A stretch of DNA of 25,339 nt from Saccoglossus kowalevskii (Eukaryota > Hemichordata > Enteropneusta > Harrimaniidae), in NCBI RefSeq assembly GCF_000003605.2, contig NW_003106595.1, forward strand, positions 574,733 through 600,071, read 5' to 3'. A program made the position numbers and the translations under genes. Shown here piece after piece: positions 1,300 through 25,339 of this stretch (position 1 is its first letter; each line of letters begins with the position of its first letter). Under the pieces are notes generated by a model. The model was not told the DNA's origin. It searched no databases and saw only the letters and a program-made list of their open reading frames with translations.

Positions 1300-1460
1300 G
1301 TCACCAAGGTCAAATATCGCAGGTCAATATTGGCACTACACATTTTCTCAACGCAGTAATTCAGAGAAAAAATCTGGCAAAGGTATCAGTAATCAGATTA
1401 TGTGGACCAGCTTCAACCAGCCTGCCACCATGCATTGATATCCCATCAGATCTGTCAAAG
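1300..1460 (+). CDS. Exon 1 seen: HyuA N-terminal segment
   Basis: The exon begins with the last two bases of a split codon (xGT) after TTTTCAG, so a coding exon must precede it, and it ends in phase 0 at AAAG|GTGAAA. It encodes 53 residues with VNIGTTHFLNAVIQR followed by VIRLCGPAS. This is the classic junction of the hydantoinase N-terminal domain, where the strand after the first phosphate motif leads into the variable 'LCGP' turn. I searched 1-1299 for the preceding exon with a D-V-G-G-T-N-T-D type motif and saw none. That exon is therefore most likely left of the window. Confidence 0.92.
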
Positions 1461-4400
1461 GTGAAAGTCATACATAGGAGTATACCTACGTAGTTGTGTG
1501 TTTTTAATTATTAGATCAAATAGGCATTATTTATTTATTTATTTATTTACTTAGCTCACAATTAAGGTCCAACTTGTACTCTTACAATTGCTTAAAAATT
1601 GAGTGCCATTCAAGCGTAAGTTTTCAACTGAAATATATTATATGACCATTGAATGTCAAAGCTAGGTCATCTTACATAACATAAGTTTAGTCAAGGAATT
1701 TTTGTAATTCATGTCAGGTATTTGTTTTTTTCTTTACATTAGGTAATATGTGCATCTACACATTTACTGCAAGGTGGATATGAATACGACGGTAGAGAAA
1801 TAACATCTGTGGATGTACAGGAAGTTAAAAGTTGTATTCAATTATTGAAAGAGCAAGGAATTAGAAATGTGGTTGTTTGTGGTATATTCTCTCCAGTTAA
1901 TCCAACCCAAGAATTAAAGGTATGTGCATTATAGATTATCATAACATATCTTGGATTCTTCATAAAAAGTCAACATCATGAAATTTTGTGGGGGTGAAAA
2001 AAATTTACATGAATGCCATAAAATCCTGAAATATATTATATGCTTTACAATATTGAACCAGTACATATTTTTAAATGTTTGGGAGGGCAATATCATTATT
2101 TGTTGCCTGTTCAAGGGATGGTGGTCATGATTATAATATTGATTGAGCCAAAGGCAAGGATATCATCAATATTATGGTCATAACCAACAGCCCAGGGGCT
2201 TGTCAACTGACGGCAAATCCCCTACCACAAACACAAAGTGCGAGAAGTGAGGACACTCCTCATCCCTGATGTCGTCACAACTATAGATTATCTGAATTTT
2301 AGGCAGTGATACACAGTTTAACTTAGAAAAAACTCACACAGGGTGAATAAATTATATTGTCCTCTTATTTAAACCAAATCTACAGTTTGGAATCCACCGT
2401 AGTGATCCCAGATACACTGTATCAGTGGCAGCTTTGCTGTTTATAGTTGTTTCATATAAAGAATATCCTAAACATCTAAACGATGTATCTTATTTAATAT
2501 CCATTCCGGCATATTCACAGTCTATTTTGGAGGGCTAAAGTTTCTTCAGAACATTGAAAGCAACATCGACTGGGACAGCGGTAATGCAGATGTCATTTGT
2601 GTGATATACCAAGTGTTTTCTACTTAGCAGGCATTGAGATGTGATAATGATATACGAGTATAAGTACATATCATACAAGACCATTATTCAGTTATATGAC
2701 CAGTATATAATAATATATATTTAAATAATAACACATGTATGTAAAGGTAATATCATGATTTGTTGCCTGCCCAAGGGATGGTGGTCATGACCATAATATT
2801 GATAATGCCAGAGCCAAAGACGAGGGCATCATCAATATTATGGTCATGCAAATCGTGATATTGCCCGAATAACCATGTGTTATTTATATTATCACATCGA
2901 GAAGACATCCACCATGCACAAATACATCGAGCCATACACCACTCACACCCACTCTCCCACAAAATAACAACACTTATATTTAAAGTATGGAATATTTAAA
3001 GTAGGCAATATTTTATTTTCATGTATTATAACAAGTGCCACATTACTCAATGTCATACATACATTGTTTGCTGAAAAAACTGCGAAATACACACAGTAAA
3101 CACTATTTTCAGCCACGGATACTAAAAGTGAACCACTCAATTTATCGAGTATAACATTTTTGAAATGAACTGAGAAAATCTCAAACGCAAGTTATTTAAC
3201 CACTCGCAAGATAAAAATGTCAGAGTGCCGTAGAAGTGTTTGAAATTACTTTCTCATGAACATACTACACCTTCTAGTCACAAATCACACAGTTTAGAGT
3301 GTTTTCGATTAGCATCGGCGTGGAGCGCGTAGAAATGCTCACAGCATAGAACACTGCCGCAGCGATTCGGCTGCGACGTTTCAGTGGCGGCTTTGACGTA
3401 CATTTTTGCTTCATATAAAGAATACCCTAAACATTAAAACAGAGTATCTTACTTAATATCCATTTTGGCATGTTCGCTGTCTTTTTTGAACGTCTAAAAT
3501 TTCTTTAAAACCTTGAAAGCAACCCTGAAAGCAACAACAAGCACCAGCCGGGCAAGCACCAGTGCAGCGAACGACAATTTGTTATGCGCAGTAGTTTCAG
3601 TGACGTCATCCATGTGATATACCCGTGTAATATCCCCTTGGCGGGCAATATACCAGGGATGTAATATACATTTTTATTCAACCAATCATAACAGGCAAAA
3701 AAGCAGTGAGATGTGATAAATATATATATTGTGATCATTAATTATTGGTATATCCTATGCAAAAATCATTCATTCATTCATTCATTCATTCATTTACTCA
3801 TTCATTCACCTGATGTTTAGGTGGCCTCCATATTTAAAGAAGAGTACCCTGATGTCAGTCTAACTTTGTCACACACAATAAGCCAAATTGGTTTGCTGGA
3901 AAGGGAAAGCGCAGCAATATTGAATGAGAGTTTAAAGCCACTCTGTTTACAAACCATCAGTGCCTTTCAGACTGCCCTGCAACAGCTGGGACTTGATTGT
4001 CCTTTTTACCTGACCCAGAATAATGGCACAATTCTCAGGTAATACCGGTATACACGGTTTAATATACATCTAACATAGAGAAGCTTTACAGTATTAAAGG
4101 GAGGTGGTCGTCGTGCCGTGTCGTGTTCAAAATGGGACTAATAACAACGTACGCAACACATGTGAAATACAAAACATTGTTACATTTAATGTCATGTTTA
4201 TGTATAATATTCTATTGTGTGGATGTTACCTGCATAGCAGTTTGCTCTTCCACTAACCAGTCATAATAGATTTCATGTGTATAAATCTTGTAATGCAACC
4301 ATTATTTGTTGCCATTAGCTAGTTAAAGACATAGCTATGATTTACATAAGACAGAAATTAATCACACGCCATATTTGCCCCTATTGTAAACCTGTCCAAA

Positions 4401-7400
4401 CTGAATCATGTGTAAATTGCTAAATTGTTTTTACGTTGCAAGTTGGAAACATTGATGCTCAGAGCATTTGGACCATTCAAAATCTGTCCAACCTTCTGGC
4501 GCAATATGCGCAAGCATACAAACGATGAACGTGCAAACGCTAACAACAATTGCGATAAAATCATCAAATCGTGAAAATACGTAACAGTGAAAATTACTGT
4601 AGGTAAATAGTTTACAGTACTCCTTGTACTTAATAAGATACTTTCTATTCCCTCTGCTCAGTGCTAAACACGTCTTAGAGTTTCCAGTGCGTACATTTTC
4701 ATCTGGGCCAACAAACAGTATGCGAGGAGCAGCACATTTATCTGGAGTTAAAGATGCTATTGTTTTAGACATTGGTGGGACGTCTACTGATGTGGGTTGT
4801 CTGAATAAAGGACTTCCAAGGCTTGCTTCAACACATGTAGAGGTATGAATCTTCACATTTTCAAGTGTAGTGAAATAACATTATTGTGAATTACAAAAAT
4901 TTATTGAGCTTCCTTCTTTTATGACTGATCCATTTTGCAGAGTGAAACCATTATCTAGTCTACTACTAGTTGACAATGAGTACCGTAATCATTCTATCAC
5001 TTTTGCTGAAACAATAATTTTTAAATTTTCGTTCAGCAATCTGAACCTGTTCTGATGAATGCATTCAGTGTGACCTTTCCGCCTCAGTAGATGTTTTTTT
5101 TACTATTGACAAGGATTAAAACTATCGATACCGTAGTTAATCTGTGAGGTTTTTGACTCTCGTTTGCAAAGTTTGCAGTTAGTGTGTCTGTCTGTGTGTC
5201 TGTCTGTGTTTGTTCCACTGCTATCTCGAGAACCATACATCGTTTTTTGATGAAACTTGGTGCATAGATGCTCTGGGCCAATGCGCAGATTTGATTAGGT
5301 TTTGGTAAAAAGCCATGCATATTAATTACCTAATTTGCATGATAATTAGCTGATTTTTAGCTGTTCCATGACTGTTCCACTGATATCTAAAGAACCACTC
5401 ATTCGATTTTGATGAAACTTGGCACATATATGCTCTGAACTAATGTGCAGATTTGATTAGTTTTGGGTAAAAATCTCTGCAAACATTAATTACCTAATTT
5501 GCATAATGATTAATCAATTTTTGGCTTTTTCACTGATATCTCAAGTACTACTCATCACATTTCAATAAAACTTGGTATGTAGATATCATAGAACACTGCA
5601 CAGACCTGATAGTTTTTAGGGTGATATCAGTACATATTAATTACCTATTTGCATAATTAATTAATTTTCAGCTTTTGATATTTTAAGTAGTGATCATCAC
5701 ATTTTACTGAAACTTGGTACATATTTACTTAAGGACTGTGCAGAGACCTGGGTTTTGGGATCAATATTTGTGCATATTAATTACCTAATTTGCATAATTA
5801 GTTATTTCCCCCCAATGAATGTTCCATTGATATATAAAGAACCACTAATTAGATTTTAATGAAACTTTTAAAGAGTATTCATCATCACATTTTAATGAAC
5901 CTAGGACTAAGCAGAGACCAAATTAGTTTTTGGTAAATATTTATGCTTATTAATCACCTAATTAAGATTATTAATTAACACTGATATCTCAATTACTGAT
6001 CATCACATTTGAATAAAATTTGGTACATAAATGCTTTAGGACAATAGACAGGCCCGATATAATTTTGGGTTGAAATTTGTTCATATTAATTCTCTAATAA
6101 TAATTCATAAATTTTTTGTTCTAATCACATTTCAATGGAACTTGGTACATATATATTACATTATGCAGGCCTTATTAGTTTTACACTCAAATCTGTTCAT
6201 ATCAGTTACCTGATTTACATAATTAGTTTTCAGCTATTCCATCAATATCTCAAGTACAAGTAATTTTGAATTAATTTTTAATGTGTTTGAAATACTCTCA
6301 GCACACAGGAGTTCTTTCCAAGCTTTCTTTGATTTTTTATTGACAAGGATTAAAACTACCGTAGTTAATCTGTGAGTTTTTTGTGTTTTGTTTCCATTTT
6401 TTAAATATGTTCTATTTGAAATTAAATCAATGGATATTTTTACTTCTACAATCAAGTTTCCGGTACCTCTGATGAAATATATTTTTTTTTATTCCAGTAT
6501 CCCAGCTCCAAAAATAATTATTTGTTGTATATTGTCTGATTTCAGTCCATTATTTGTGTGAGCACCTGCATGTCTGCATCTTAAACATATTTATTGTTTA
6601 ATTCAACTTTTCTATAGAGATATGACATTCTTTTACCGATATCTTCAAAATAATACACTGATGATCTTCTGGTAGTGAGATCTGATCTAAGTGATCGTAC
6701 ATGAATTGTGTTTTTAAGCTGGCTAATTTTTGACAAGATATCTTTGCTCAAATATTTATTTTACAGATTTTGACGGTAAATTCTAAAAATGGTCGACAGC
6801 GTTTTGCACTGATTTTGACAGTGGCTGTATCACCGATAGAAAATGTACTAATTCTAAAGCAGATAAAAACATATACTAATGTAGCACATTTTCCTTCAAA
6901 TTATAAAAAAAATATTTAGTTGGGTGGAGTGAGAACCAACTTTAGGATGCCTGATGTGCTATGTATAGGACTTGGCGGAGGTTCACACGTAAATATGGTA
7001 CAGAGTAACAATGGAAAAGTAAGTTGAAATAATTACATTATTATATGCTCCATTAGTAGTACAACTTGCCCTTGTTGAAAATTGCAGAGGTGCTTTTATG
7101 GGCAAAATAAGAAGCATTTTATGATTCAGTGTATTATATTTTTGGAGATGCGCTTCTAATAGAGAAAATATGGTGCTTATCTTGGTCAAGGAACACTTGT
7201 AAACACTGTATAGAGTAATGATGGCAAAGTATGTTATAATGTTGTTTTGTGAACAAAAAATACTCGTTATAGAGAACTATACCAGCTATATGCAGCTAGA
7301 CGTTTTTAAAAACTGAAATGTGATTCGTTAGCAATTTCATGACGTCATTCCACCCGTCAGTCACACTGATACACTACAGGAATATTTTTCTACAGTGGCA

Positions 7401-10400
7401 AGTGATGGCGATCAATAAAAGTCCCTCGTGCTTTGCGTTATTTGCTTGATTTCGCAAAAGCATTGCGGCATTTGATTAAATCATGTTAGTGCAAAAAAAA
7501 CATTAGGCCAGAGGAACTGTCAACAGTCTATATTCAGTGTGTGATATCAATCGTAGCTAAAGAAATTTACTCATATGTTTACTATCCAGTAAAATTTTTG
7601 AGTTTTACAAAATTCCAAACCATATTTCTGCATGATTATTTAGCAATGAATACTGTGTATGAGTTTCATTTTCAGCAGTTTCAGTTTCTTTAATAAAAAA
7701 ATCAAACTTTTATTTCAGAAGTCTGTCAAAGTCGGCCCACTGAGTTGTGGCAACAATCTTACTGTCCAAGGGATGGTTTTTGGTGAACCAGTTGGTGAAA
7801 AGGTGTTGACAGCAACAGACATTGCAGTTGCAGCAGGACTTGTAAACTTAGGGGACCCTAGCAAAGTGGCACACTTAGACAAGCAGTTAATTGACAGTGC
7901 AGTTGAAGAAATGCATTTCATGGTAGAGTCTGCAATTGACAAAGTTAAGGTGAATAAACTTTCATTTCATTTTATTATATTTTGTGCACATATTTTATCT
8001 AACTTATTTTCATACTGATTTGGCTTCTTAATGCTCAATAATAAATTCTACTTGAAGTTTCAGACTTTTCTAACCTGGAAGAAGATCCTGTTCATTCCAT
8101 AATTGTTACATGCATGTAATGCAATGCAAAATAATATCGTCTATGTTAGTTACATACACAAGTTGACCTGAAACTATGTCATTTGACTAGTTTAGATTAA
8201 AATGAATCCGCAATTAGAATACTCATATTTTCTGTAACTGATAAATAAATTGACAGCATTTTTTTTTTCCAACCAAAAGATCACCCACCTGCGGTGTATC
8301 GGATAAATACATTATGCTTTGCTATGGTCATATTTCAGTTCTCTTAAATTTCACATTTTAATGATTTTCAGCAAATGTTAACAACCAATTTTGCTAATAG
8401 GCTATGAGGATAGTGTTGCGCGCATGCAACCAAACTGTTCTATTTAAAATAACTAAGAATATTTTGCTATTGTTAGACTGACAGAAAAATACTCACAATT
8501 ATTTACGCAACACTATTTTCTAAAGGGACTATTGCCATTACATTTTTAGTCCCCGTTCGAATGCAGTCCGAAAACAGGGACTTGTGTTTTGACCTCTGTG
8601 CGTCCATGCGTCTGTGTGTCCATGCTTCCGTCTGTGCGTGCATGCGTCCGGACCTGTATCTTCAAAATTCCTGGACCAATCACAATCAAACTTCACACGT
8701 ACATCAAACATGATATTATACATATGCACATCAATTTGTTTCACAATCTGATTCAAGATGGCCGAATGGCAGCTATTTTTGTTCTGAAAATCATCAAAAT
8801 CAAGCATTTCTCGGCTGTTTACTGATGGATTTTGTTCAAACTTAGTATATACGTTGGAAATTATAGGACCTTGATGCACATCATTTTGTTTTTCAGATAA
8901 GAATCAAAATGACTTGCTGTGACTGATTATGTTCAAATGTTAAATATTCATTATACATCATGTCATAGATATACAGATATATTGTTTTGACGATCCTATT
9001 AAAAATGGCCAAATGGTAACCATTTTTGTGCTAAAAAATCATCAAAATCAAGCATTCCTCAGCTGTTTACAGATGGATTTTGTTCAAACTTGGTATATCT
9101 GTTGGACATTATAGGACCTTGATGCACATCATTTTGTTTTTCAGATAAAATTCAAAATGGCCGACTGACGGCTATTTTGTTTTAATGAATGTGGTTCTAG
9201 TGACATATCTCTGACTTGCTGTGACTGATTATGTTCAAATGTTAAATATTCATTATACATCATGTCATAGATATACAGATATATTGTTTTGACGATCCTA
9301 TTAAAAATGGCCGAATGGTAGCCATTTTTGTGCTAAAAAATCATCAAAATCAAGCATTTCTCAGCTGTTTACAGATGGATTTTGTTCAAACTTGGTATAT
9401 ATGTTGGACATTATAGGACCTTGATGCACATCATTTTGTTTTTCAGATAAAATTCAAAATGGCCGACTGACGGCTATTTTGTTTTAATGAATGTGGTTCT
9501 AGTGCCATATCTCTGACTTGCTGTGACTGATTATGTTCAAATGTTAAATATTCATTATACATCATGTCATAGATATACAGATATATTGTTTTGACGATCC
9601 TATTAAAAATGGCCGAATGGTGGCCATTTTTGTGCTAAAAAATCATCAAATATCAAGCATTTCTGGCATTTATGGATGGATTTTGTTCAAACTTGGTACA
9701 TACATTAGACATTATGGGTTCCTGATGCACGTTATTTTATTATTTAGATCAGATTCAGAATGACTGATTAGTGGCCATTTTGTTTTAATGATTGGGCCTC
9801 TAGAGCCATATCTCTGACATGCTTTGACTGACTATGTTCAAATTTTATATATTCATTATACATGTATTCAAAATGGCTGCATGATTTTGTTTTAATTAAT
9901 GCTGTTCCAGAGCTATATCTCTCAATACTCGTTTGACGATCAGATACAAATGTCAATCATTTGAATGTAAACAATCATCATAGTCATATTCCTGACATGT
10001 TTATATTCCAGCTCTATTACTATATACTAAACTATATATCTTAAATTTGATAACTAACGGGGACTGTGTCATGCATGGCTTGTTTGTTTCAATATCATTT
10101 GCTTTTAAAATATGTTTTAATGCATGGATTTACAAAGACATGTTTTTTATTTTGATCACTAGATATATACATGTATGTATGGGAAGCACATGCACCAAAT
10201 ATGTCACATATATGTAGTAGCCCCAAAACTCAAAGTGTTAAATTTGATATAAATAGCATGTGTTTCAGTTGATATTTTGACTTTTGATTTCTTGTATTTG
10301 TAGTTGAAATCCATGGACCAACCCATAATACTGGTCGGTGGGGGCAGCATTCTAGTTGATGAAAGGAGACAGTTACAAGGGGTATCTACTGTTATCAAGC

Positions 10401-13369
10401 CGCCACACTTTGAGGTAACAACCTAATTTTCATGAATGTCTGTATTGCACTCATCAACTGTATGTCTGTTTATTTGGGTGAATTGTGGGTAAGAATGTTG
10501 CATTCCTGTTTCTTGGAATTATGTGGTTCTGTTCATTCAGAACCAAGAGATGATGGTAGAAACAACTTTATTCACTGCTGTTAGTTATGCCTGCCCAGCG
10601 GCCATCTTGGAATGCAACAAATATACCATGTACATGCACATAAGGGGGCCTCTCACATTACATCACTACATTCTATCAATACTATTTTCTAAAGTATTGA
10701 ATAAGAGAAATCACATAAATACTGTAGTTTGATGTATGTGATCTAAATATATGACGTCTGATTTTCTAAATGTACCGAGGGAGGGTGACAAAAATAAAAG
10801 CAAATTTTTGAAATTGGAATTATTGTGAAAATTTTTTGAATTTCAATTTGTGAACAGCTCAAGTTATTGCAGATGTCTAGGTTTTATCAGTTGTCAATCA
10901 TCACATAGGTTGCAAATGCTGTAGGGGCAGCCCTGAGCCAAGTGAGTGGTGAAAAAGATGTGGTGGTGAGAATGGACAAGGCAGTCCAAGATATGCTGAA
11001 TGAAAATTCAACAGACGATGAGATCAAAAAGGCCAAAGAAATTGCAAGACAACATGCTATCGATGCGGCAAAGAAAAAGGCAATCCAGGAGGCAGTGAAT
11101 GCTGGAGCTGATGAGAGCACAATAGAGGTGAATAAAACTCCCATAGTCATAGCAACATGCAACATACAATGTGGATAAAATACCAAATTCTCTGTACAAG
11201 TATGACACTTAAGTCTTATTCTTGTCAACATTGTGTTTGAAGAATTTGACATCTTAAGTGATATGTGTACTGTAATAAATACAACATCTATGGGATTGGC
11301 ATTTATCATTTAAAATTTATCATATGCCAATAGTCGAGCATAACTTAGCTGTTATTTTTTCAGCATCGTCATCAAGTCCAAAAATTGCATGGAAGATTCT
11401 CAGTTCAGCGATTAAAAATGGACTATATTACAAAATCCATATTCAATGGGAAGAATTTTTCATTAAGATTAGTTTGGTATACACACCTCACTCTTGCGTC
11501 GTTTCTGAATGGTCATGAGGTCCCTCCATTTTTAATTTGTAGGACAAATGTTTTACTCATGTTACAGCATTAAAGCAAATGTTGAACATTACCTTCTTCT
11601 TAGTTTAGTTGTTTTTACTAGTGCACTCCTGAAGACAAATTCTAACAGCAGTGCATGATGGGTTTTGTTATAGTGACTGAGTTTCTGTTACGGGTAAATT
11701 AGCTTTTGTCACATTGGTTAATACTCTGTTGTTTTTCTTTGCCAATTTTAAACTGGTTTAGCCACTTTGAGAATGGAAAGAAATGAAAAATCATGAATTG
11801 GTGGCAAAAGTGACATAATTTTTTGTAAGGAAATCTAAATGAAATGCAGTATTGGCAACTAAGGATTAGTAGAAACACAGAGTGACACTAAATAACTCAC
11901 TCAATAAATGTTGAAATATATACGGTTTCAAGTAGTACTCACAAACACATGAATGCTGGCCAAATTTGTTACAGACAAATTTCAAGAACAAGCAAATTAT
12001 TATTTCAACTAGACTATGAAATTAATACATGGGACTCTATGAGGGGAAAAGTAAAACACCCCCTGTTGAATTATAAAGAAATCAATTTTTTTTTAATGTG
12101 TTGAGAACTACATTTTATCAAATATATAAATAACAAAAGGTTGTCACTGACCTTTTTATTAATATATGACAGTTTTCTGTATGCTATTACATTGACAACA
12201 CAACGTTCTCTTGCGCATTCATGTAAACCTGCAGGTTTTCGGACTGTATTTATCACCTAACGTTTGTGATGCTTGCATGCGTTTCACTGTCACTTATGAG
12301 GTATTATACATTTTCTTTGCCAAAACACTTGTACATTTACAATATCAAGTTTTTTTTTACTAGAACAAAGGAGGGAGCACTGCAATTTAGTGGCGCCACC
12401 AAGTGGGGGGAGATAGGGTTCTCTCTACGAGGGTGTGGAGTTTTTGATAATTCTAAGTTAAAATGGAGCATGCTATGGCTTCCTTTAGGCCAAAATTACT
12501 ATCAGACAGGTAATAGTTGAAGACTGGCCACATGTGATCCCTGGTCAATCAGAATTTTATGGTTGCCAGAGGATCTGCTCCCCAGGATAAGGGGGCGCAT
12601 GGCCATGACATGAGGGTGCTGCGCCCCTGTTCCCTTGTTTAAAAAAATCCCTGATATCTTTGTTAATTTTGGACCATGTGGCTACAGGTGTATAATAGAC
12701 AAGTTTAGAGTTGCTGGGCATGTTTCATGGTTGTTATGTTACTGACCACATTTGTAACAGAAAGGGGGGGGGGGTATGTTGGATATACATGCTTGTAACT
12801 TGTCCCCCAGAAATGTTTAGCAATATGGGGATATAAATGTTATTTTGTCTTCATTCATTCATGTATAAAAATGTAAAAACACGTCAAAGGTACTGTCAAC
12901 AATCTAGAATCAATTATGCGGTACAAAACTGAAGCTTGTATAATAACTGCCAGGAAGTGAAGCCCTGTTTATGCATTCCCCCAACATTTGCAGGCAGTGT
13001 AGCTTAGCAACCAGGGAACTTTAAGATCGCAAATAGATCTATTGTGGAAGGTGACAAAATTTGACTTTTAATAAACTTTTAATGCACAGATTACAGATTT
13101 TGAAGAAATACCGTTGACCTACCTGACTGGTAATGCAGTGAGATACAAAGTACAGGCCATAGGATCTCTCAAGTTAACTGATCAACAATGTCATTCTGCT
13201 ACTGTTGATGTGGTTGTCAAGCAACCAGAGAAAGATGAAGCTCCTCAGGAAGTATTACAAAGTCAAGGTTAGTATGTACAGTGAGCAGTCTGTTACACTG
13301 TAACTCTTTCAATTGACTCAGTACTGTTATCTGAGCTCCTAACCAAACTTTTATTTTGTGATGATGATG

Positions 13370-13401
<32 letters not shown>

Positions 13402-16400
13402 GGGCCTGCTAGTACTGCCCCAAGACCATAAGAATAAAAGAAAATCACAAATTATTATTGACGCTTTGAAAATAGTCACCTACTATTTTATCAAATTTGG
13501 TTCAATGCATGGAAGAATCTTATTTTTAACTGCCAACATTATGGTGGAAATTGATTCAGCTCAGCAGTTCAAAATGAACAGTGTGTAATGTTTTGTTTGG
13601 TGATTTACTAAAACAAATAGAAGCTTAAAAGTAGAGGAGGTATGATATTGTATCAATAAGGATCAGTCAAACTGGTTAGCCATTTTTATCAGTACCAGGC
13701 AACGACTAGTGTGACTTCTTGCATTTAGAGTATTTACCATCAACCATGTTTATAATATTCAATGGTTACATTGTGTCCAACGTCATTTGAGTCAGTGTGT
13801 GTTACAGTGAAAGACACAAAGCTATAGGGCTTTGCTTAAAATGTATATATATATAAAAGTTTGTAATCATTCAAATATTCATTCATGCACACACATTGAA
13901 ATGGGACAAAATATAACACCTTGGTATCCTTATATACATTGAATCCAATATTTCTGAAAGATAGTGACCATGGAACCATATTTATTTCAAAATTTAACTT
14001 GTGAAAATATTATATATAGCAACTATGGAACTCAAAACACTTATTAGTCAACAATTTGCATTTGTAACAACAATTGCATCTCTGATTTTCAGCTTGTGAT
14101 CTGTTTAAAGTAGGGAATGCACCTGCACCATCAGAAGAGGCATCAGTGACAGTAGAACCATTGGCGGCGAAAGACAATGCCAGTGATGATCCACACATTG
14201 ATACTGTCACAGGGGAATGGTTGCTATCAGAGCGAGACATCGACTGTATTTCTATAGGTGCTACTATTCTTGGATGTGGTGGAGGAGGGAATCCGTATTT
14301 TTTAAAACTGCAAACCAAACGTCAAATTCAAGATGGTAAAAGAATAAGAGTTATAACACCTGAGAGGTATGGTAGCTCAATGTAATAATTAGTAGTCTCA
14401 GTTTGCTCACCTTGTTTTAAACTCACAAAGGAAACAGTATATTTCACAGAATACATTGCACAATCTAAAATGTCCGTCATTTTTACTTTTAGCGAGACCC
14501 TTCAAAATATGTGGTACATCAAAATTCAAAAAAAGTATTGGTTTTTTGTATTAAACTGTCTAGCATCTTATCCCCACAATTCTTATTTTATGGTCTGATT
14601 TCCCCTAGTTATACACAATGTTTTCACTTTTTGTTTTCTGAAAGGCTGCATAAGACTGATTTAAAGCGAGAGGGTCGTCACCTACACATGCGCGAGAATT
14701 GAGTCCCAAACGACCATAACAACACACGCTTAAACACAAAGGCTCATGGGTAGACATGTGCAGATGACAACTCCCCCTCTTTAAGCTTTCATGGATTTCA
14801 TAAATAAGTTTATTGAATATAACTTTTGAGCCAAGTTGTATTAATCAGGTACTTGTCATATTGTTTTGACCTTTCATCTAATAAAGTAGCTAGAGGGTAC
14901 ACACGTACTCGTTATTAGAATCTTGTGGTTCAGACACAAGTTTCTACACAAGTTGAAAGATGATTGTATTCTATATTTATTTTATATATTTTAAAAACTT
15001 TCACTAGATATGTACTTCTGCAATAATATTCATTGCAAGTGCATGTTTTTACTTTCAGAATTAATGATAATGGTATTGTTTCTTGTATTGCCTATATGGG
15101 AGCTCCGATGATAACGATAGAAAAACTGACTTGCGATAGTGAATTAGTTGGCTCTGTTTTATGCATGCAAAATATACTGAAGTCTGGTTACAGTGATGGC
15201 TATATTCAGGATGAAGGTGAAACAATTTACTGATAATTTATCTGGATTTTTTATCTCACTGTGTTCCCTTGGCTGTGATAAATACTGCTGTTTATGTTTT
15301 ATTCTTGAGCTAGAGCTATATCACAGAATGTTTTATGTTGCTTGGACATGTATCACTGTACCATGGGTTTTTATGGGCTCTGTGTGAGCTGCTGTCGAAC
15401 AGCATGTAGTCTCAGAACCAGTAAAAACAGCTAATGTCGAGAAAACAAAACAAACTCAACTTAGAGACAATCCAAAACGTCCCAATTAACTGTTATGTGT
15501 TGCAGTGGTCTTGTTACACTGTTCAAGAGAGCCTCAACAACTAACCCAAAAGTTAGTTCTTTTGAGAGTTTTGGGGCTTTGTTTTCAACGATGATGTTTG
15601 TCAGGCAGTGAAAATGCATGGATGTCCACTCCTGAGTGACAATTTTAGTTGATTCATTTTTAGTTTTTAATAGACTTAAAGATTGTGCGATTCAAAAATG
15701 CTTCTTTATTTCTATTCTCGAGATCATACATTACATTGCTGCATTTAAATACCTATCACATTCAAACTTCACACATATATTATATATCTTGGGATATATG
15801 TTTTTCCTGTTGCGTTTGGTTTCAAGATGGGTGTATATTGACCATTTTTGTGCTAAAATAATCATTAAAATTATGTCCTTCTGCCATTCTGGAACCAGAT
15901 TTTGGTCAGATTTTCTGCAAGTTCAAGCATTAGACATTATTGGACCTTGATGCATGTCTTTTGTTTTTTTCAGATCAAGTTAAAAAACAGGTGATTGGTG
16001 GCCATTTTATTTTAAAGAATGATGTTCTGAATTTATATCTCTGATATGCTTTGCCTTTTCATGTTCAAACCTTATAAATTTCTTGATTGGAATTACCAAA
16101 TAAAAATATGTTTTTAGAAGAGAATATTAGCGCCATCCTGACAGAGTGGAGCTATTCCTAACTTGCTTGTACTCTACTTTTTAATTCCTCCGAAAAAATG
16201 ATAACTGTATGTCTCTGATTCTTTCCAGGGAGATGGTTCTTCTTCATTATTTTAGTGAATATTGTAATGTTTTGGTAAACAATGGAATTTTCGACTTTGT
16301 CCTAAAAACAGCATTTCACATTTAGATGAAATGGTGAAGACGATAAATGGTCACAGATATAATAACCTAATGATTCTTTCTCCCAGATGGAATTAATGTC

Positions 16401-19400
16401 AAAGAGATAGATGGACTCAGATATATTGATGACTATCACAGTGACTGTACATCAGTAATGAAACCGGATGCGACAAATACTTTGACTGCTCTAATGAGTG
16501 CTGAGATAGGTGGTCTTAATTCAATGGCACCGTTGTACGTTGGCAGTGTTCTAGATATTCCAGTTGTAGATGCCGATGGTATGGGAAGGGCATTTCCTGA
16601 GTTACAAGTATGCATTTATACACATTTTATTATGTAAACCTCTAGCAGCTTATTATCCAAAGTGAAAAAGCAATCTAATATTTCTCTTGTTAGTTGGAAT
16701 AATGTAAACATAATACCATGCTTGCTAGAAAGACTTTCCAATGTACCCCTACCTCTAATCCTAACCTGACACCACTTTCTATTGCCCACTCAAATTAATT
16801 GCATATATCCCTCCTGAGAACATCTATACTTATCTAAAGTCTTTCTTGCTTGCTGCAAGTGAGCAATTTTCTAACTTTGAAGAATATTGTTATCGTTTTT
16901 AGTAAAAAAATGATATCATCAACATCAGTACTCTGGGTAAAATGGATTCCACTTTAAAAATCTGAAATTTGTGAAAAAAATCCCATACTATGAATAACAG
17001 TAAAAGCACATTAAGAGTGAAATACATAAAAGAAAACACTTCTGTATTCATTAATCCAGATCCAGATCATGATAAAAATGTATATAAATATTTGGTGAAA
17101 CAAATGTTTTGTGGATCTCTCAGACTCAGTGTCAAAACCTCTAATTTTACATGCAGGTACCCCTAATGAAGCTTTCTTACATTTGGGTTTTGCAACCTGT
17201 ATCATGATTTCTATCGGTGCAGAATATGCTGTAAATTACTGTTATAAAATTTCAGCCCAATAATATTTGGGTTCTATTTTTTCAGATGTTTGTTCCAAAT
17301 ATTTGTGGTCTACCTATGCATCCATGCTGCTTGTCAGATGAGAAAGGTAGAAGAGCTGTTGTGTTAAAGGCAAACACTGCGAAAGATATTGAAGATTATA
17401 TGCGTAAAGTTGTGGTAGAAATGGGGTAAATATGGTTATGAATTTACCATGCATATGAGTGAGGCAAAATGGCTAAATTCAATTCGTGTTTATATGTTTC
17501 TTTACTTGAATTAGTCAGGTTCAGACCAAGTTAAACATTGTATGTAATCTATTTCTTACTTTTTCATTATTATTGGCTTTAAATATATCAAAAATGTAAG
17601 CAAAAATTGAGGTCACTTTCAAGAAACAGAATTTCATAAATACTTGCACCAGTTTTCATGGTAAAATTATTCCTTCATATCTTTACATTTTGCTTGGTGA
17701 GATGAGATGACAAAAGTCATGTATTATTGATATTATGGAAACATTTTAAAAAATTGGTTTTTAATATAGTGAGTTTTCAGTGTGATAGTAATTTTCTATT
17801 ATATGGAATGCAAAGTTCTTTCCCATAATGCAATATATATACATAGTGCCCTGCTTAGTAGTATACAATTTGATTTTGAATCAAACAATAACAACATGAA
17901 TTTTATTTGTAGTTTTTCTATTTACTTTAACCTACTCTTTAACACTAAAATGGATTGTCTTGTACTAGAGATGATAATAGTTTTCCTAACATATATCATC
18001 TCGCAGACAATACAAAATGGCATACAAAATAAAGTCAGGTATGAAATGTATAGTGATGTCCGTATTCACTATGTTCTCTTACAGATGCAAAGGAGCCCTT
18101 TCTTGTTGTACATTCAATAAAGAAGACATCATGTCCCACAGTGTGAAGTATTCTATCAGTAGAGCTTGGCGTCTCGGTCAAGCTGTAATTCATGCTAAGA
18201 GTATCAAGGCAGACCCGATACAAGCAATATTGAAGTGTGAAAATGGAAAACTTTTAATTAATGGAAAGGTAACACTCTTACCAGAAGAAATCATGTTCAT
18301 ACACAAATAAATCTGATCATGTCACACTTTTGTTTTACAGTTTTATTCAAGATGGTTGACTGGAGTTTCTTATTATTTGTAATAACATGCGTCTCTTACA
18401 CGACCATTTATATTGGTTATAACATAGTATATAACTCCATAATATGTGTAATGTGACACAAATGCACATACAATTTTTTCCAAACATGATACGCATATAG
18501 AAATGAAAATACACGATATGACACATATAGAAAAATTAATAAACAGGTCTTGGACGCTTACTATCTCTTGTATAATAAAAATAAAATTTAGATCCTGCAT
18601 TATATGTGAATCATAGACACAGAACAAACAAAGCTCATAGCAATAAAGATCTATCAAAACACTGTTTGAGATTAGACAAACGTATTTTAATATCGTGTTA
18701 TGCACAATTGGCGATAGTCAATTTTGATGAGCTAATGGTATTTCAATGACATTTTCCCTTTGGAAAGGTCCATATGTCGGTATTTAACTAACACATTAAA
18801 ATGTACATAATAGTGAATGCAAATTTGTGATTATCTGTAAATGTTTTTGCTATTCACTCAGATATCAGATGTTGCCAGGACCACAGAACGTGGGTTCAAT
18901 ACCGGGAAAGTGATCATAGATGGATTCGATGAAAATGCTGGAAAGACACTTCATATTGAGTTCCAGAATGAAAATCTGATTGCTACTCTTCACAGCGAGA
19001 TGGAGAAACCTAAGGTAAACTTAATTGTGTAAAAGTATGAATAGCTTTTAACTGGCTCTGATCAAATGTTGAGATACGTTCTTTGCACTGTAAGCAAACC
19101 CACTGTGAATTTAGTATTTACTTCATTATGTTTATTTGACATAATTATGGCATTATCCCTCCACTCAACAGGTTTTAGCATGTGTTCCTGACTTGATCAC
19201 TATCATTGACACCGACACTGGGGAGTGTATTCCCACTGATGAAGTACGATATGGACTACGTGTCACTGTGCTTGTGTTACCATCAGCGCATGTTCTAAGA
19301 ACACCTACAGCATTAGAGGTGATTGGTCCACAGGCATTTGGATACTCAGAAGAAGTACAGTACCATCCAGTGTGTGACAGCTCTGCTTATGATCCAATAC

Positions 19401-19411
19401 CACCAATGTAG
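1300..19411 (+). CDS. HyuA-type hydantoinase/oxoprolinase fused to DUF917 (5'-partial, 16 exons)
   Basis: Whole gene model: exons 1300-1460, 1743-1919, 3821-4038, 4662-4842, 6920-7018, 7719-7949, 10304-10414, 10909-11127, 13090-13267, 14093-14366, 15059-15216, 16387-16607, 17286-17425, 18085-18268, 18862-19014, 19172-19411. All introns are GT-AG, and the phases chain to 980 codons plus TAG with no internal stop. Residue numbers count from the first whole codon in exon 1. Seen: IGTTHF at 10-15, DIGGTSTD at 221-228, GLGGGS at 262-267 and LVGGGS at 365-370, which are landmarks of the HyuA ATPase fold. DUF917 landmarks are GCGGGGNP at 585-592, MGAP at 629-632, EIGG at 708-711 and PVVDADGMGRAFPELQ at 727-742. 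Known: bacterial HyuA enzymes hydrolyse cyclic amides with ATP, often with HyuB, and fungi also carry HyuA-DUF917 fusions. No signal peptide can be judged because about 50-60 N-terminal residues, with the first phosphate motif, lie upstream. Inferred: a soluble enzyme of hydantoin, oxoproline or thiohydantoin turnover, substrate unknown. Confidence 0.93.
1526..1549. repeat. (TTTA)n microsatellite
   Basis: About six perfect TTTA/TTAT units in intron 1. Confidence 0.9.
1743..1919 (+). CDS. Exon 2: HyuA N-terminal domain, continued
   Basis: This exon has 59 codons and is phase 0 on both sides. The acceptor is TTTACATTAG and the donor AAG|GTATGTG. It encodes a glycine-rich stretch (LLQGGYEYDGREI), an amphipathic helix and then NVVVCGIFSPVNP. 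The last segment matches the 'vAVs.vFSPvn..hE' strand and turn of hydantoinase N-terminal domains, as I recall the family. Confidence 0.9.
2085..2660. repeat. Intron-2 interspersed repeat, copy A
   Basis: Starts with GGGCAATATCATTATTTG and an imperfect hairpin whose arms lie at 2126-2143 and 2165-2182 (about 15 of 18 bases pair). From about 2420 it runs through a block (TTCATATAAAGAATA..CCTAAACAT, then TTAATATCCATT) that recurs at 3409-3470. It ends near GAGATGTGATAA at 2636-2647. The two copies in this intron are diverged and differ in length, so they are probably old insertions of one non-autonomous family. No protein-coding content is seen. Confidence 0.65.
2634..2903. repeat. Long inverted-repeat (fold-back) element
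   Basis: A perfect 18-bp inverted repeat, 2786-2803 against 2831-2848, lies at the centre. Outside it, the left arm around 2722-2766 (AATAACACATG ... AATATCATGATTTG) pairs imperfectly with the right arm at about 2848-2890 (CAAATCGTGATATTGCCC ... CATGTGTTATT). A further outer pair, GATGTGATAAT (2638-2648) and ATTATCACATC (2889-2899), encloses a 75-base asymmetric insert on the left. This looks like a MITE or foldback element, or nested insertions of one. No target-site duplication is obvious. Confidence 0.65.
3370..3740. repeat. Intron-2 interspersed repeat, copy B
   Basis: Diverged direct copy of the block at about 2420-2660. Both share CAGTGGC.GCTTTG, TTCATATAAAGAATA.CCTAAACAT, TTAATATCCATT, CTTGAAAGCAAC (or near), GTGATATACC and GAGATGTGATAA in the same order. 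Copy B has an extra segment around 3520-3600. The intervening 2905-3370 holds no gene I can recognise. Confidence 0.65.
3766..3808. repeat. (TTCA)n microsatellite next to an acceptor
   Basis: About ten ATTC/TTCA units with one interruption. The repeat ends 12 bases before exon 3 and supplies most of the pyrimidine-poor acceptor neighbourhood. Confidence 0.9.
3821..4038 (+). CDS. Exon 3: end of HyuA N-terminal domain into the ATPase core
   Basis: The exon starts in phase 0 and ends with two bases (AG) of a serine codon completed in exon 4. It contains LTLSHTISQIGLLERESAAILN, the family's 'lSheig..g.leReNtailNa' signature, followed by a helix and then the substrate-side strand FYLTQNNGTIL. It sits 12 bases after a TTCA microsatellite. 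The acceptor is TGATGTTTAG. Confidence 0.92.
4039..4661 (+). other. Intron 3
   Basis: 623 bases, AT-rich. A reading frame on the - strand that overlaps exon 4 is an antisense shadow. Nothing else is seen. Confidence 0.6.
4662..4842 (+). CDS. Exon 4: HyuA core with ATP-binding DIGGTSTD motif
   Basis: The first base completes a serine codon, and the exon ends in phase 0 at GTAGAG|GTATGA. It encodes RTFSSGPTNSMRGAAHLSG and then IVLDIGGTSTDVG. The second motif is the phosphate-binding loop of the ASKHA-type (actin-like) ATPase fold in hydantoinase A. All key glycines and both aspartates of DIGGTSTD are present, so the nucleotide site looks intact. Confidence 0.95.
5104..6376. repeat. Degenerate tandem array bounded by direct repeats
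   Basis: The interval is bounded by a direct repeat: TTGACAAGGATTAAAACT..CCGTAGTTAATCTGTGAG at 5106-5148 and again at 6340-6376. The first copy has about six extra bases. Between them, seven or eight degenerate units of about 140-165 bases repeat 'atatctcaa..a.cactcatcacatttt.atgaaacttggtacatatatgct' and 'attaattacctaatttgcataatta'. A CTGT-rich simple repeat (5181-5210) opens the array. No coding potential. The terminal direct repeats may be remnants of the element's ends or simply extra repeat units. Confidence 0.75.
6920..7018 (+). CDS. Exon 5: HyuA core with GLGGGS motif
   Basis: This short exon has 33 codons, phase 0 on both sides, acceptor AATATTTAG and donor AAA|GTAAGT. It encodes GGVRTNFRMPDVLCIGLGGGS, which joins directly to the end of exon 4 as in bacterial relatives (...VEvGGvrtnFrmPdv.siGlGGGS). 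Nothing is missing across the 2.1 kb intron between them. A decayed second copy lies exactly 210 bases downstream. Confidence 0.93.
7165..7228 (+). pseudogene. Decayed duplicate of exon 5
   Basis: Shifted by exactly 210 bases from exon 5, the ungapped 60 bases from 7181 match those from 6971 at 43 positions by hand count, and this includes the donor region. In frame it reads LGQGTLVNTV, a TAG stop, then SNDGK, against LGGGSHVNMV-Q-SNNGK in the true exon. The stop arises where the real exon has CAG. Similarity fades upstream of about 7170, so the 5' half is lost or has diverged past an indel. The most likely reading is an old local exon duplication now dead, possibly once an alternative exon. 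Confidence 0.7.
7719..7949 (+). CDS. Exon 6: HyuA core, TATDIAVAAG segment
   Basis: This exon has 77 codons, phase 0 on both sides, acceptor TTTATTTCAG and donor AAG|GTGAAT. It encodes KVGPLSCGNNL, then VLTATDIAVAAGLVNLGD and a long helix. The TaTDiaVAaG.a..Gd signature is typical of hydantoinase A. The open frame continues into the intron for a short distance, but family homology stops at the GTGAAT donor. Confidence 0.93.
8410..8516. repeat. Short element or stem-loop with 11-bp perfect inverted repeat
   Basis: ATAGTGTTGCG at 8410-8420 is the exact reverse complement of CGCAACACTAT at 8506-8516, with an 85-base AT-rich loop. Size and layout resemble a very small MITE. A related string, ATACTATTTTCTAAAGTAT, occurs near 10677-10695. 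Confidence 0.45.
8548..10065. mobile_element. 1.5 kb non-autonomous element with AGTCCCCGTT terminal inverted repeats
   Basis: AGTCCCCGTT at 8548-8557 is the exact reverse complement of AACGGGGACT at 10056-10065. The left end also folds on itself (AGTCCC.GTT against AACAGGGACT at 8573-8582). A TGCGTCCATGCGTCTGTG-rich stretch follows, and then a tandem of 302-base units. No frame of convincing coding quality exists inside, so any mobility would depend on enzymes encoded elsewhere. The flanks (TTTTT and GTGTC) show no clear target duplication, so the true ends may lie slightly outside. It fills most of intron 6. Confidence 0.6.
8758..9900. repeat. 302-bp tandem repeat, about four units
   Basis: The anchor ATGGCC.AATGG occurs at 8758, 9005, 9307 and 9609, and a second anchor, GACTTGCTGTGACTGATT (or near), at 8911, 9213, 9515 and 9816. 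Spacing is 302 between the good units. The first is 247 because a 55-base block (GCCGACTGACGGCTATTTTG...) is absent. The central units are almost identical, while the outer ones are clearly more diverged. That pattern fits recent internal amplification by unequal exchange or replication slippage. Confidence 0.85.
10304..10414 (+). CDS. Exon 7: HyuA ATPase, second glycine loop
   Basis: This exon has 37 codons, phase 0 on both sides, acceptor TATTTGTAG and donor GAG|GTAACA. It encodes PIILVGGGSILVDERRQLQG followed by a strand ending KPPHFE. ILVGGGS is the C-terminal adenosine-side glycine loop of the actin-like ATPase fold and aligns with 'vilVGGGsilvp..l.G.s.v..P..a' of the family. Confidence 0.92.
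10909..11127 (+). CDS. Exon 8: HyuA C-terminal helical region
   Basis: This exon has 73 codons, phase 0 on both sides, acceptor ATCACATAG and donor GAG|GTGAAT. It encodes VANAVGAALSQVSGEKDVVV, the family's 'aNAiGAAiaqvsGe.d' helix. A charged helix (KKAKEIARQHAIDAAKKKAIQ) follows, ending AVNAGADESTIE. The last part corresponds to the conserved tail 'A...AVaAGAdpatvevve' of hydantoinase A. Confidence 0.93.
11128..13089 (+). other. Intron 8
   Basis: 1,962 bases without recognisable coding. A locally G/C-richer patch at about 12365-12640 contains the perfect palindrome GTGGCGCCAC (12390-12399) and may be an old repeat fragment. An 11-base G run lies at 12764-12774. The short open frames have no family character. 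Confidence 0.55.
13090..13267 (+). CDS. Exon 9: end of the HyuA part
   Basis: The exon starts in phase 0 after TAATGCACAG and ends one base into an alanine codon at CAAG|GTTAGT. It encodes ITDFEEIPLTYLTGNAVRYKVQAIGSL, matching the closing strands of HyuA ('.eeiPlaYlpgna.ri.vkavG.l'). A charged, flexible tail follows (VVVKQPEKDEAPQEVLQSQ) and begins the linker to DUF917. Confidence 0.91.
13357..13402. repeat. (GAT)n microsatellite
   Basis: About 15 GAT/ATG units with one GGT interruption in intron 9. In one frame it reads as a run of methionines, which is an artefact. Confidence 0.95.
14093..14366 (+). CDS. Exon 10: inter-domain linker and start of DUF917
   Basis: The exon joins exon 9 in phase (G|CT = Ala) and ends with AG of an arginine codon before GTATGG. 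The first 40 or so residues are a low-complexity Pro/Glu/Ala/Asp linker with no family match. From about residue 566 it reads EWLLSERDIDCISIGATILGCGGGGNPYF, the N-terminal signature of DUF917 ('.ltee.le.ia.Ga.iLGtGGGGdp'). This exon physically encodes the fusion of the two domains, so the fusion is not an artefact of joining neighbouring genes. Confidence 0.93.
14367..15058 (+). other. Intron 10
   Basis: AT-rich, with a more complex patch at 14645-14785. No gene or clear repeat is recognised. Confidence 0.5.
15059..15216 (+). CDS. Exon 11: DUF917, MGAP segment
   Basis: The first base completes an arginine codon and the last base starts an aspartate codon (GAAG|GTGAAA). It encodes IVSCIAYMGAPMITIEKL followed by a helix (ELVGSVLCMQNIL) and SGYSDGYIQDE. 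The MGaP...EKl motif is a recognised DUF917 landmark. The stretch after the helix is less like bacterial members. Confidence 0.9.
15740..16095. repeat. Diverged relative of the intron-6 element
   Basis: Shares, in the same order as 8670-9240: CACATTCAAACTTCACAC, TTTCAAGATGG, CCATTTTTGTGCTAAAA.AATCAT.AAAAT, TTAGACATTAT.GGACCTTGATGCA, TTTTGTTTTT.TCAGAT, GGCCATTTT.TTTTAA.GAATG and ATATCTCTGA.TGCTTTG. Only one unit is present and I see neither AGTCCCCGTT end. An old, truncated insertion in intron 11. Confidence 0.75.
16387..16607 (+). CDS. Exon 12: DUF917 core with DADGMGRAFPE motif
   Basis: The exon starts after CTCCCAG with two bases finishing an aspartate codon and ends in phase 0 at TTACAA|GTATGC. 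Its first half (about residues 669-700) has no clear bacterial counterpart that I can recall. The second half reads LMSAEIGGLNSMAPLYVG and then IPVVDADGMGRAFPELQ, the most diagnostic block of DUF917. All the conserved acidic and arginine residues of that block are present. Confidence 0.94.
16608..17285 (+). other. Intron 12
   Basis: 678 bases of AT-rich intron. Nothing beyond the splice sites is recognised. Confidence 0.5.
17286..17425 (+). CDS. Exon 13: DUF917, cysteine-rich segment
   Basis: The exon starts in phase 0 after TTTTTTCAG and ends with GG of a glycine codon at ATGGG|GTAAAT. It encodes MFVPNICGLPMHPCCLSDEKG and then VVLKANTAKDIEDYMRKVVVEM. The layout 'm.tf...G.p..P..l.D..G' is kept, but three cysteines (residues 749, 756, 757) sit where bacterial members, as I recall, usually have small or hydrophobic residues. 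Confidence 0.91.
17426..18084 (+). other. Intron 13
   Basis: 659 bases, very AT-rich. The open frame crossing into exon 14 is in the wrong phase until the TTACAG acceptor. No other content is seen. Confidence 0.5.
18085..18268 (+). CDS. Exon 14: DUF917, RAWRLGQAV segment
   Basis: The first base completes a glycine codon after CTCTTACAG, and the exon ends in phase 0 at AAG|GTAACA. It encodes CKGALSCCTFNKEDIMSHSVKY and then ISRAWRLGQAVIHAK, matching the DUF917 helix 's.a..lG.av..ar'. Another cysteine pair lies at residues 796-797, with C790 close by. Confidence 0.92.
18269..18861 (+). other. Intron 14
   Basis: 593 bases, AT-rich. An open frame on the - strand (18373-18705) is hydrophobic by base composition only and has no family signature. 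Confidence 0.5.
18862..19014 (+). CDS. Exon 15: DUF917 C-terminal beta region
   Basis: This exon has 51 codons, phase 0 on both sides, acceptor TTCACTCAG and donor AAG|GTAAAC. It encodes ISDVARTTERGFNTGKVIIDGFDENAG followed by IEFQNENLIA. This corresponds to '.g.i.dv.r.t..Gf..G.v.i.g.....g....i.fqnE.l.a' in DUF917. The paralogue at the right edge has the matching exon on the - strand. Confidence 0.93.
19172..19411 (+). CDS. Exon 16: DUF917 C-terminus and stop
   Basis: The acceptor is CACTCAACAG, the exon starts in phase 0 and runs to TAG at 19409-19411. It encodes VLACVPDLITIIDTDTGE, a middle strand pair, and then TPTALEVIGPQAFGYSEEVQYHP. These match the last conserved DUF917 blocks (vPDLI.vlD..tge.i and gp.aFGyd..y.p). 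No canonical AATAAA is seen within about 1 kb downstream. A TATAAA variant is present near 19699. Confidence 0.95.
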   Translation, partial: VLACVPDLITIIDTDTGECIPTDEVRYGLRVTVLVLPSAHVLRTPTALEVIGPQAFGYSEEVQYHPVCDSSAYDPIPPM

Positions 19412-21607: not shown

Positions 21608-22690
21608 TCCAATTCATATACCAAATATCTCCAATCATTTACTAAACTTAGCCAATCCTAGACCATTGTGATAAATCATATATCAAACCTAACCATTCGT
21701 AGACCATTGTGATAAATCATATACCAAATGTGCCAAATCATAAACTAAACTTGGCCAACCCAAGACTATAATGATAAATCATATACCGAATGTGCCAAAT
21801 CATAAACTAAACTTGGCCAATCCTAGACTATTGTGATAAATCATATACCGAATGTGCCAAATCATGAACTAAACTTGGCCAATCCTAGACTATTGTGATA
21901 AATCATATACCAAATGTGCCAAATAATAAACCAAACTTGGCCAATCCTAGAATATTGTGATAAATCATATACCAAATGTGCCAAATAATAAACCAAACTT
22001 GGCCAATCCTAGAATATTGTGATAAATCATATACCGAATGTGCCAAATAATAAACCAAACTTGGCCAATCCTAGAATATTGTGATAAATCATATACCGAA
22101 TGTGCCAAATCATGAACTAAACTTGGCCAATCCTAGACTATTGTGATAAATCATATACCAAATAATAAACCAAACTTGGCCAATCCTAGACTATTGTGAT
22201 AAATCATATACCAAATGTGCCAAATCATAAACCAAACTTGGCCAATCCTAGACTATTGTGATAAATCATATACCAAATGTGCCAAATCATAAACTAAACT
22301 TGGCCAATCCTAGACTATTGTGATAAATCATATACCAAATGTGCCAAATCATAAACTAAACTTGGCCAATCCTAGACTATTGTGATAAATCATATACCGA
22401 ATGTGCCAAATCATGAACTAAACTTGGCCAATCCTAGACTATTGTGATAAATCATATACCAAATGTGCCAAATCATAAACTAAACTTGCCCAATCCTAGA
22501 CTATTGTGATAAATCATATATCAAATGTGCCAAATCATAAACCAAACTTGGCCAATCCTAGACTATTGTGATAAATCATATATCAAATGTGTCCAATCAT
22601 AAACTAAACTAGGCCATTCCTAGACTATTGTGATAATATACCAAATGTGTCCGATCCAATACCAAGTTAAACCAACCCTAGACGACTGTA
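21608..22690. repeat. 62-bp minisatellite, about 18 units
   Basis: The anchor GATAAATCAT (or near) recurs at 21670, 21711, 21773, 21835, 21897, 21959, 22021, 22083, 22145, 22198, 22260, 22322, 22384, 22446, 22508, 22570 and 22632. Spacing is 62 except for one 41-base and one 53-base unit. The consensus reads GATAAATCATATACCAAATG, then TGCCAAATCATAAACTAAAC, then TTGGCCAATCCTAGACTATT and GT. Because 62 is not a multiple of three, and stops are frequent, it is not a protein repeat. The edge units are the most diverged. Variant types (CATAAACTAA, CATGAACTAA, AATAATAAACCAA with GAATATTG) recur in clusters, which indicates block duplication. Confidence 0.95.
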
Positions 22691-24694: not shown

Positions 24695-24949
24695 TTAAAA
24701 ACTATTTGCTGCACATTGATGAACAGGTTTATATTCTGTGTAATCCGCCACAGGATGGTACTGAACATCTTCTGGATATCCAAACGCTTGTGGACCAACG
24801 ACCTTCAATGCTGTCGGTGTTCTTAGAATATGCGGTGATGCGAACACAAGCACAGTGACACGTAGATTATTTCGTAACTCATCAAAATGAATAGCCTCCC
24901 CAGTGTCAGTGTCAACGATAGCGATCAAGTCAGGAACACATGCTACAAC
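24695..24949 (-). CDS. Last exon of a second HyuA-DUF917-type gene (paralogue)
   Basis: On the - strand, an acceptor TTGTCAACAG precedes a phase-0 exon that encodes VVACVPDLIAIVDTDTGEAI, then LRVTVLVFASPHILRTPTAL and VVGPQAFGYPEDVQYHP, and ends in TAA at 24697-24695. By hand count, 53 of the first 75 residues match exon 16 of the + strand gene, and the intron falls at the same codon and phase. The tail differs: here it ends with about 10 extra residues finishing CAANSF. The reading frame is intact, so the copy is probably functional. Known: this is the DUF917 C-terminus. Whether the upstream part also holds a HyuA domain cannot be seen here. A possible ATTAAA polyadenylation signal lies on the - strand at 24546-24541. 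Confidence 0.93.
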   Translation of the reverse strand, partial: VVACVPDLIAIVDTDTGEAIHFDELRNNLRVTVLVFASPHILRTPTALKVVGPQAFGYPEDVQYHPVADYTEYKPVHQCAANSF

Positions 24950-25190: not shown

Positions 25191-25339
25191 CTTAGATTCT
25201 CCTGTCATGCAGTGAAGAGTTGCAGTCAGATTTTCGTTCCGGCATTCGACACGAAGTGACTGACCAGCATATGCGTTATAACCATCAATGATCACTTTTG
25301 CTTTTGAGAATGCGCCTGACAGTTTCGTTTTACATCCGA
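25191..25339 (-). CDS. Penultimate exon of the paralogue, cut by the window edge
   Basis: Reading the - strand from the right edge, the frame is open from 25339 down to a donor TCTAAG|GTAAGA at 25191/25190. It encodes KTKLSGAFSKAKVIIDGYNAYAG (in pieces) and then VECRNENLTATLHCMTGESK. It aligns to exon 15 of the + gene (GFNTGKVIIDGFDENAG... FQNENLIATLH). The upstream acceptor is not inside the window, so the exon continues beyond the edge. A 241-base intron separates it from the last exon. Confidence 0.9.

Follow-up and report, generated by a model that had tools for sequence, protein, structure and literature searches.

The question raised by this locus is whether a HyuA-type ATPase and a DUF917 domain, which the initial annotation read as parts of a single animal fusion gene, are indeed encoded together, and, if so, what kind of chemistry such a protein might carry out. 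The window, by which the whole analysed stretch of 25,339 nucleotides is meant, belongs to the Saccoglossus kowalevskii assembly (contig NW_003106595.1, here C128, positions 574733-600071) and lies between runs of N of 4,330 and 1,242 bases. The gene in question (gene A) is laid out in it as follows.

1300..1460, plus strand: exon 1, visible part (aa 1-53, within Hydant_A_N); the gene's 5' portion falls beyond the window
1743..1919, plus strand: exon 2 (aa 54-112)
3821..4038, plus strand: exon 3 (aa 113-184)
4662..4842, plus strand: exon 4, with SGPTNS and DIGGTSTDVG (second phosphate motif)
6920..7018, plus strand: exon 5
7719..7949, plus strand: exon 6
10304..10414, plus strand: exon 7, with VGGGS
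10909..11127, plus strand: exon 8
13090..13267, plus strand: exon 9, with the HyuA end (about aa 492) and the first part of the linker; without a recognised counterpart in paralogues B and C
14093..14366, plus strand: exon 10, with the second part of the methionine-free linker and the DUF917 start (GCGGGGNPY)
15059..15216, plus strand: exon 11
16387..16607, plus strand: exon 12, with EIGGLNS and VDADGMGRAFPE
17286..17425, plus strand: exon 13
18085..18268, plus strand: exon 14
18862..19014, plus strand: exon 15
19172..19411, plus strand: exon 16 and stop codon

As reconstructed, the gene consists of 16 exons on the plus strand (1300-19411) that yield 980 codons and a TAG stop codon at 19409-19411, the first visible exon beginning within a codon. 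Its splice sites were chosen by eye for homology and phase and checked afterwards, with 15 of 15 introns being GT...AG and the reading phase being kept at 15 of 15 junctions, which bears out the 16 in-phase exons and 980 codons initially annotated. Between exons 6 and 7, the intronic sequence contains 3.2 tandem copies of a 302-bp unit (92% matches, window 8910-9863). The Pfam check proposed for the joined protein returned all four expected domains above cut-off: Hydantoinase_A at 2e-29 and Hydant_A_N at 7e-21 (PF01968 and PF05378, 103.6 and 75.2 bits against cut-offs of 22.9 and 25.2), followed by S-Me-THD_N at 1e-46, matched in two stretches, and S-Me-THD_C at 2e-59 (the PF06032/PF20906 halves, 159.2 and 200.6 bits against a cut-off of 27).

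The Hydant_A_N profile was, however, matched from position 55 onward only, and the 4,330-base run of N, either a gap or withheld sequence, lies directly upstream of gene A on C128, which leaves some 55 N-terminal residues, including the first ATP-binding motif, out of view. The claim that the landmarks of both domains are intact consequently holds for the readable part, and not for these first residues, whose D-x-G-G-T-N-T-D motif, a feature of the bacterial kin, is absent from the window. Neither a pattern search of the joined region C128:545001-649000 (which would overlook a motif interrupted by an intron) nor tblastn of eight bacterial HyuA starts against C128:545001-576233, 609600-625120 and 632300-649000 found a first phosphate motif; the N runs in C128:545001-649000 measure 4,330, 1,242, 5,998 and 15,679 bases and lie, among other places, directly upstream of the readable parts of A and of paralogue C, and farther upstream of paralogue B. 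The second phosphate motif, DIGGTSTDVG, is present, and both its D221 (80/80 prokaryotic rows) and its D228 (77/80) are kept.

Relatives of both halves are encoded by prokaryotes, where tblastn against plasmids gave 891 records with a top identity of 41%. The set examined further comprised 87 loci, namely the best 80 of 551 genome-contig stretches encoding a relative plus seven annotated plasmid loci, and is no census. HyuA was present at 84 of these 87 loci, and at 77 it was adjacent to DUF917 on the same strand with the matches no more than 350 nt apart, HyuA coming first in 42 of the adjacent pairs (the order seen in gene A) and DUF917 in 35; HyuA was otherwise placed at seven loci, and three had no HyuA in the available DNA, some stretches being short. 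In none of the 87 did the two share one frame, and an overlap of 4 or 8 nt links the two genes in five of the seven annotated plasmid loci. Both halves of gene A align over their full length with these bacterial and archaeal partners (HyuA 43-47%, DUF917 31-41% identity; HyuA short, about 515 aa), which are two separate genes; gene A is a single, intron-containing one with a 74-aa linker and with inserts, some 20 aa long in HyuA and some 40 aa long in DUF917. Fungal HyuA-DUF917 fusions, also mentioned in the initial annotation, are said to have the same domain order. Gene A retains 53 of the 55 near-invariant DUF917 columns of the prokaryotic relatives (counted on 80 of the 87 rows, 331-479 residues in length) and 70 of the 77 covered near-invariant HyuA columns, and has the commonest residue in 109 of the 303 other DUF917 columns. 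Three loci (L003, L004 and L005) have one HyuA followed by two DUF917 genes in a row, as if the DUF917 partner there had two subunits.

As for the neighbourhoods of the same 87 loci (best 80 of 551 plus seven), counted by similarity to one query protein per family (two of the queries, the permease and the second of the racemase type, being named presumptively), parts of Opp/Dpp (peptide-type) ABC transporters were found near 50, AroM near 22, Asparaginase_2 near nine and Asp/Glu/hydantoin racemase-like genes near seven. At the Chromobacterium locus L024, which falls near the animal genes in trees, a different binding protein, which we take to be spermidine-type, stands in place of the Opp/Dpp type, its query having matched one of the 87 loci. 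The transporter, AroM and racemase-like neighbours would fit imported peptide- or hydantoin-like compounds and are silent on sulfur. Hydantoin racemases, DUF917 and AroM are also described as co-occurring in cyclodipeptide-oxidase clusters, DUF917 being called uncharacterised there (PMC11055893).

Could the animal gene nevertheless be something other than a fusion of its own genome? Two tandem genes or transcripts, suggested by the stop codon that read-through past exon 9 meets just behind the donor, seem highly improbable: the HyuA half stops near residue 492 in exon 9, at the same point as its bacterial counterparts, the phase is continuous across exons 9-10, and the 74-residue linker (residues 493-566) holds zero methionine, the first one beyond it being residue 629, already inside the DUF917 domain. 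This lack of a start codon for DUF917 favours one polypeptide. Exon 10, said initially to span the junction, does contain the rest of the linker and the beginning of DUF917; the HyuA end is in exon 9. Every relative in the searched sets being prokaryotic, bacterial contamination or a very recent transfer also has to be considered, and we regard it as having next to no probability, as gene A has 15 introns, its best plasmid match is 41% identical and the 87 loci (best 80 of 551 plus seven) do not exceed 49% (HyuA) and 40% (DUF917) identity to it, its 784-kb contig (of 4,830 contigs in the 572-Mb assembly) carries three paralogues, and its branch is long in both trees. Wnt genes are likewise found in the assembly, with 30 matches in an exon-by-exon search versus 0 in 14 control genomes. 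Contamination in particular is ruled out by the introns and the contig. The tree check proposed in the initial annotation was run with prokaryotic relatives by a quick method, the animal genes being the sole eukaryotic sequences: A and B fall beside a Chromobacterium/Shinella/Roseateles group in the HyuA tree with an SH-aLRT of 94 (the programme sets its star at 95), the animal genes have no firm position in the DUF917 tree, and the animal branch is long (1.2), with a warning about long branches from the tree programme. A transfer may have taken place long ago, and no donor is claimed. Exon phases, Pfam domains, selection (see below) and the wnt matches support the joining of a HyuA-type ATPase and DUF917 in one animal gene, as initially annotated, and gene A is a real, nearly complete animal HyuA-DUF917 fusion gene.

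Gene A has two paralogues on the same contig and the opposite (minus) strand, namely B (C128 609791 to 599427, convergent with gene A), whose last two exons, not remarked on in the initial annotation, reach into the window, and C (readable part C128 632531 to 625094).

25191..25339, minus strand: paralogue B exon 15, cut at the window end
24695..24949, minus strand: paralogue B last exon and stop codon

The search for their exons accepted only those in the phase of their A counterparts and with borders no more than 60 bases from the expected ones, leaving lengths free; the shared phases are therefore partly built in, and the lengths came out identical to those of A for seven exons of B (1-7) and eight of C (3-7, 13-15). 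All the exons found are open; exons 9, 13 and 14 of B (the last two at a run of N) and exons 1, 2 and 9 of C were not found in this search, and exon 15 of B was added by hand without its start. A and B are 62.3% identical (dS 0.82, dN 0.25, dN/dS 0.31; 767 codons), A and C 59.8% (dN/dS 0.34; 773 codons) and B and C 92.6% (dN/dS 0.51; 660 codons), ratios that point to selection on the protein rather than chance. Beside a 62-bp satellite (15.4 copies, 93% matches, window 21693-22636) lies a translated stretch that by eye resembles one near C128:622974, which adjoins gene C; this resemblance suggests that a larger segment was duplicated to give B and C. Upstream of gene B, on the plus strand (C128:611773-613225), are two open frames reminiscent by eye of gag-pol pieces of a retroelement.

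The two halves of the paralogues do not seem to have fared equally. Among near-conserved columns (threshold 0.8 or 0.5 of prokaryotic rows), those kept by A only were set against those kept by the paralogue only in eight binomial and four Fisher tests, the p values being uncorrected. In the HyuA half, the ratios were 31:3 for A/B (p 8e-7) and 25:3 for A/C (p 3e-5) at 0.8, and 47:10 (p 8e-7) and 42:6 (p 1e-7) at 0.5, and B and C have thus firmly lost conserved HyuA residues. In the DUF917 half, they were 7:4 (p 0.55) and 9:7 (p 0.80) at 0.8, with the same lean at 0.5 (15:6, p 0.08; 22:10, p 0.05). The contrast between the halves (Fisher p 0.05 for B and 0.02 for C at 0.8; 0.35 and 0.05 at 0.5) gives moderate grounds for a stronger loss in HyuA than in DUF917. 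Both B and C have D228 replaced by H, P201 by T and G230 by C and keep D221 and T225; the replacement of P201 is weaker evidence, since 63 of 80 prokaryotic rows have P in that column. The end branches are 0.62 for B versus 0.087 for A in the HyuA tree and 0.54 for C versus 0.34 for A in the DUF917 tree.

What would such a protein do? The explanation that we consider the best, and somewhat probable, is that gene A encodes a single-chain form of the prokaryotic HyuA-DUF917 pair acting as an ATP-dependent ring hydrolase with DUF917 in place of HyuB; ATP-dependent ring chemistry as such is likely, judging from the sequence. The HyuA half, a short member (about 520 residues) of the hydantoinase/oxoprolinase ATPases, would bind Mg-ATP and phosphorylate the ring carbonyl, in its iminol form, of a small compound that may be a cyclic amide, an imide or hydantoin-like. 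The DUF917 half, where HyuB sits classically, would complete the reaction, whether by hydrolysis, by opening the ring or by an exchange on the activated carbon, and the fusion would keep the activated intermediate between two active sites. Animal 5-oxoprolinase, a HyuA-HyuB fusion, holds its intermediate likewise. This chemistry and its order of steps are proposed on the strength of what was read directly, i.e., the fused gene model, domains, conserved residues, selection and bacterial pairing. With HyuA-HyuB enzymes (hydantoinase, 5-oxoprolinase, caprolactamase), gene A shares the second phosphate motif and VGGGS in the HyuA half and, putatively, two active sites in one enzyme, and differs in having DUF917 rather than HyuB (PF02538) as its second half. 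No hydantoinase B product is listed in any of the seven annotated neighbourhoods (plasmid gene tables being incomplete), from which we infer that the second step would fall to DUF917. The joined protein likewise gave no Pfam match to HyuB at E values up to 1, and an exon-by-exon search of the genome gave no HyuB exon at E 0.001 (an intron-split gene could escape). The equivalent PF01968 search matched gene A exon 4 only and missed B and C, so such searches are insensitive to split genes and do not show absence for HyuA or HyuB.

The PDB kin of the HyuA half are named N-methylhydantoinase, 5-oxoprolinase, acetone carboxylase and acetophenone carboxylase; their subunits have 658-732 residues versus about 515 in the bacterial HyuA partners, and the profile similarity of the HyuA half to PDB chains ends near position 361 of 515. 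For caprolactamase, phosphorylation is proposed to take place in CapA and ring opening in CapB (PMC8453981); Asp11, Asp295 and Thr299 of CapA are placed near the nucleotide, and the substrate is described as surrounded by Asn269, Pro272 and Asp302. When gene A is aligned to 6yra_A, whose numbering agrees with that given there, Asp295, Thr299, Asp302 and Pro272 correspond to its D221, T225, D228 and P201, all of them kept. Against the fused ring hydrolase speak the Asn269 equivalent (S198 in gene A, A in 76 of 80 prokaryotic rows), not kept in the subfamily, the CapA Asp11 motif, which lies outside the visible gene A sequence, and the adjacent pair being missing at 10 of 87 loci (best 80 of 551 plus seven). 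Sequence comparison yielded a single DUF917 relative of solved structure, PDB 2O3I, which is homologous across the DUF917 half and, unlike gene A, unfused (405 residues, listed as "Hypothetical protein").

As a rival reading of the function, the initial annotation proposed that one polypeptide could combine desulfuration with the ATP-driven opening of a sulfur hydantoin, the ring being a (S-methyl-)thiohydantoin formed when ergothioneine or ovothiol is degraded, and ATP chemistry on a ring amide is indeed plausible. A thiohydantoin substrate fits, weakly, Pfam's family name S-Me-THD-like, as well as the fact that the only DUF917 equivalogs reported by NCBIfam are thiohydantoin desulfurases, and, again weakly, exons matching OvoA in this genome. 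Gene A, however, scores 67.4 bits on NF058532 (S-methyl thiohydantoin desulfurase) and 64.1 bits on NF058529 (thiohydantoin desulfurase) against equivalog cut-offs of 450 and 440, and seven bacterial DUF917 relatives from four loci, with 74-122 bits, lie outside the desulfurase groups as well; the seven annotated neighbourhoods show no sulfur theme. Gene A, as far as its sequence tells, shares the superfamily of these desulfurases (PF06032/PF20906) and has not earned their name, the desulfuration part and the sulfur hydantoin as substrate are not supported, and we deem the whole reading quite unlikely. The exons matching the OvoA N-terminal profile, at C4451:222098-228991 (minus strand) and 329138-334177 (plus strand), none of them alone over the whole-protein cut-off, form two opposite sets, perhaps two ovothiol synthase genes, and the animal may have a sulfur-histidine pathway. 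Catalysis by DUF917 alone, the HyuA half being regulatory or structural and ATP not being spent on the substrate, would agree with the greater alteration of HyuA than of DUF917 residues in B and C and with the loci where HyuA is non-adjacent (7/87) or absent (3/87; best 80 of 551 plus seven, some stretches short); it appears unlikely, as gene A preserves the near-invariant HyuA columns (70/77 covered) and pairing is the rule among these loci.

The open-access literature yielded little DUF917 biochemistry (desulfurase work may stand in subscription papers) and, among the matches listed, no animal DUF917 gene, whether or not joined to HyuA. Nothing is overturned by the present gene, HyuA-DUF917 pairing being already plain from bacterial operons, and it offers one expressible protein for substrate screening. 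Tentatively, and with considerable doubt, one can picture a cassette of prokaryotic type that was fused and multiplied in this animal lineage, A being ATP-competent, the HyuA halves of B and C becoming pseudo-ATPases with DUF917 more constrained, and B and C acting ATP-free or regulating A; they may be enzymes with a different ATP demand, or partners of A. The paralogues, at any rate, allow an ATPase half that is conserved to be compared with naturally occurring ones that are decaying. Two enzyme parts that usually come from neighbouring bacterial genes are here found in one animal protein, and this natural fusion ties HyuA and DUF917 together in a single reaction.
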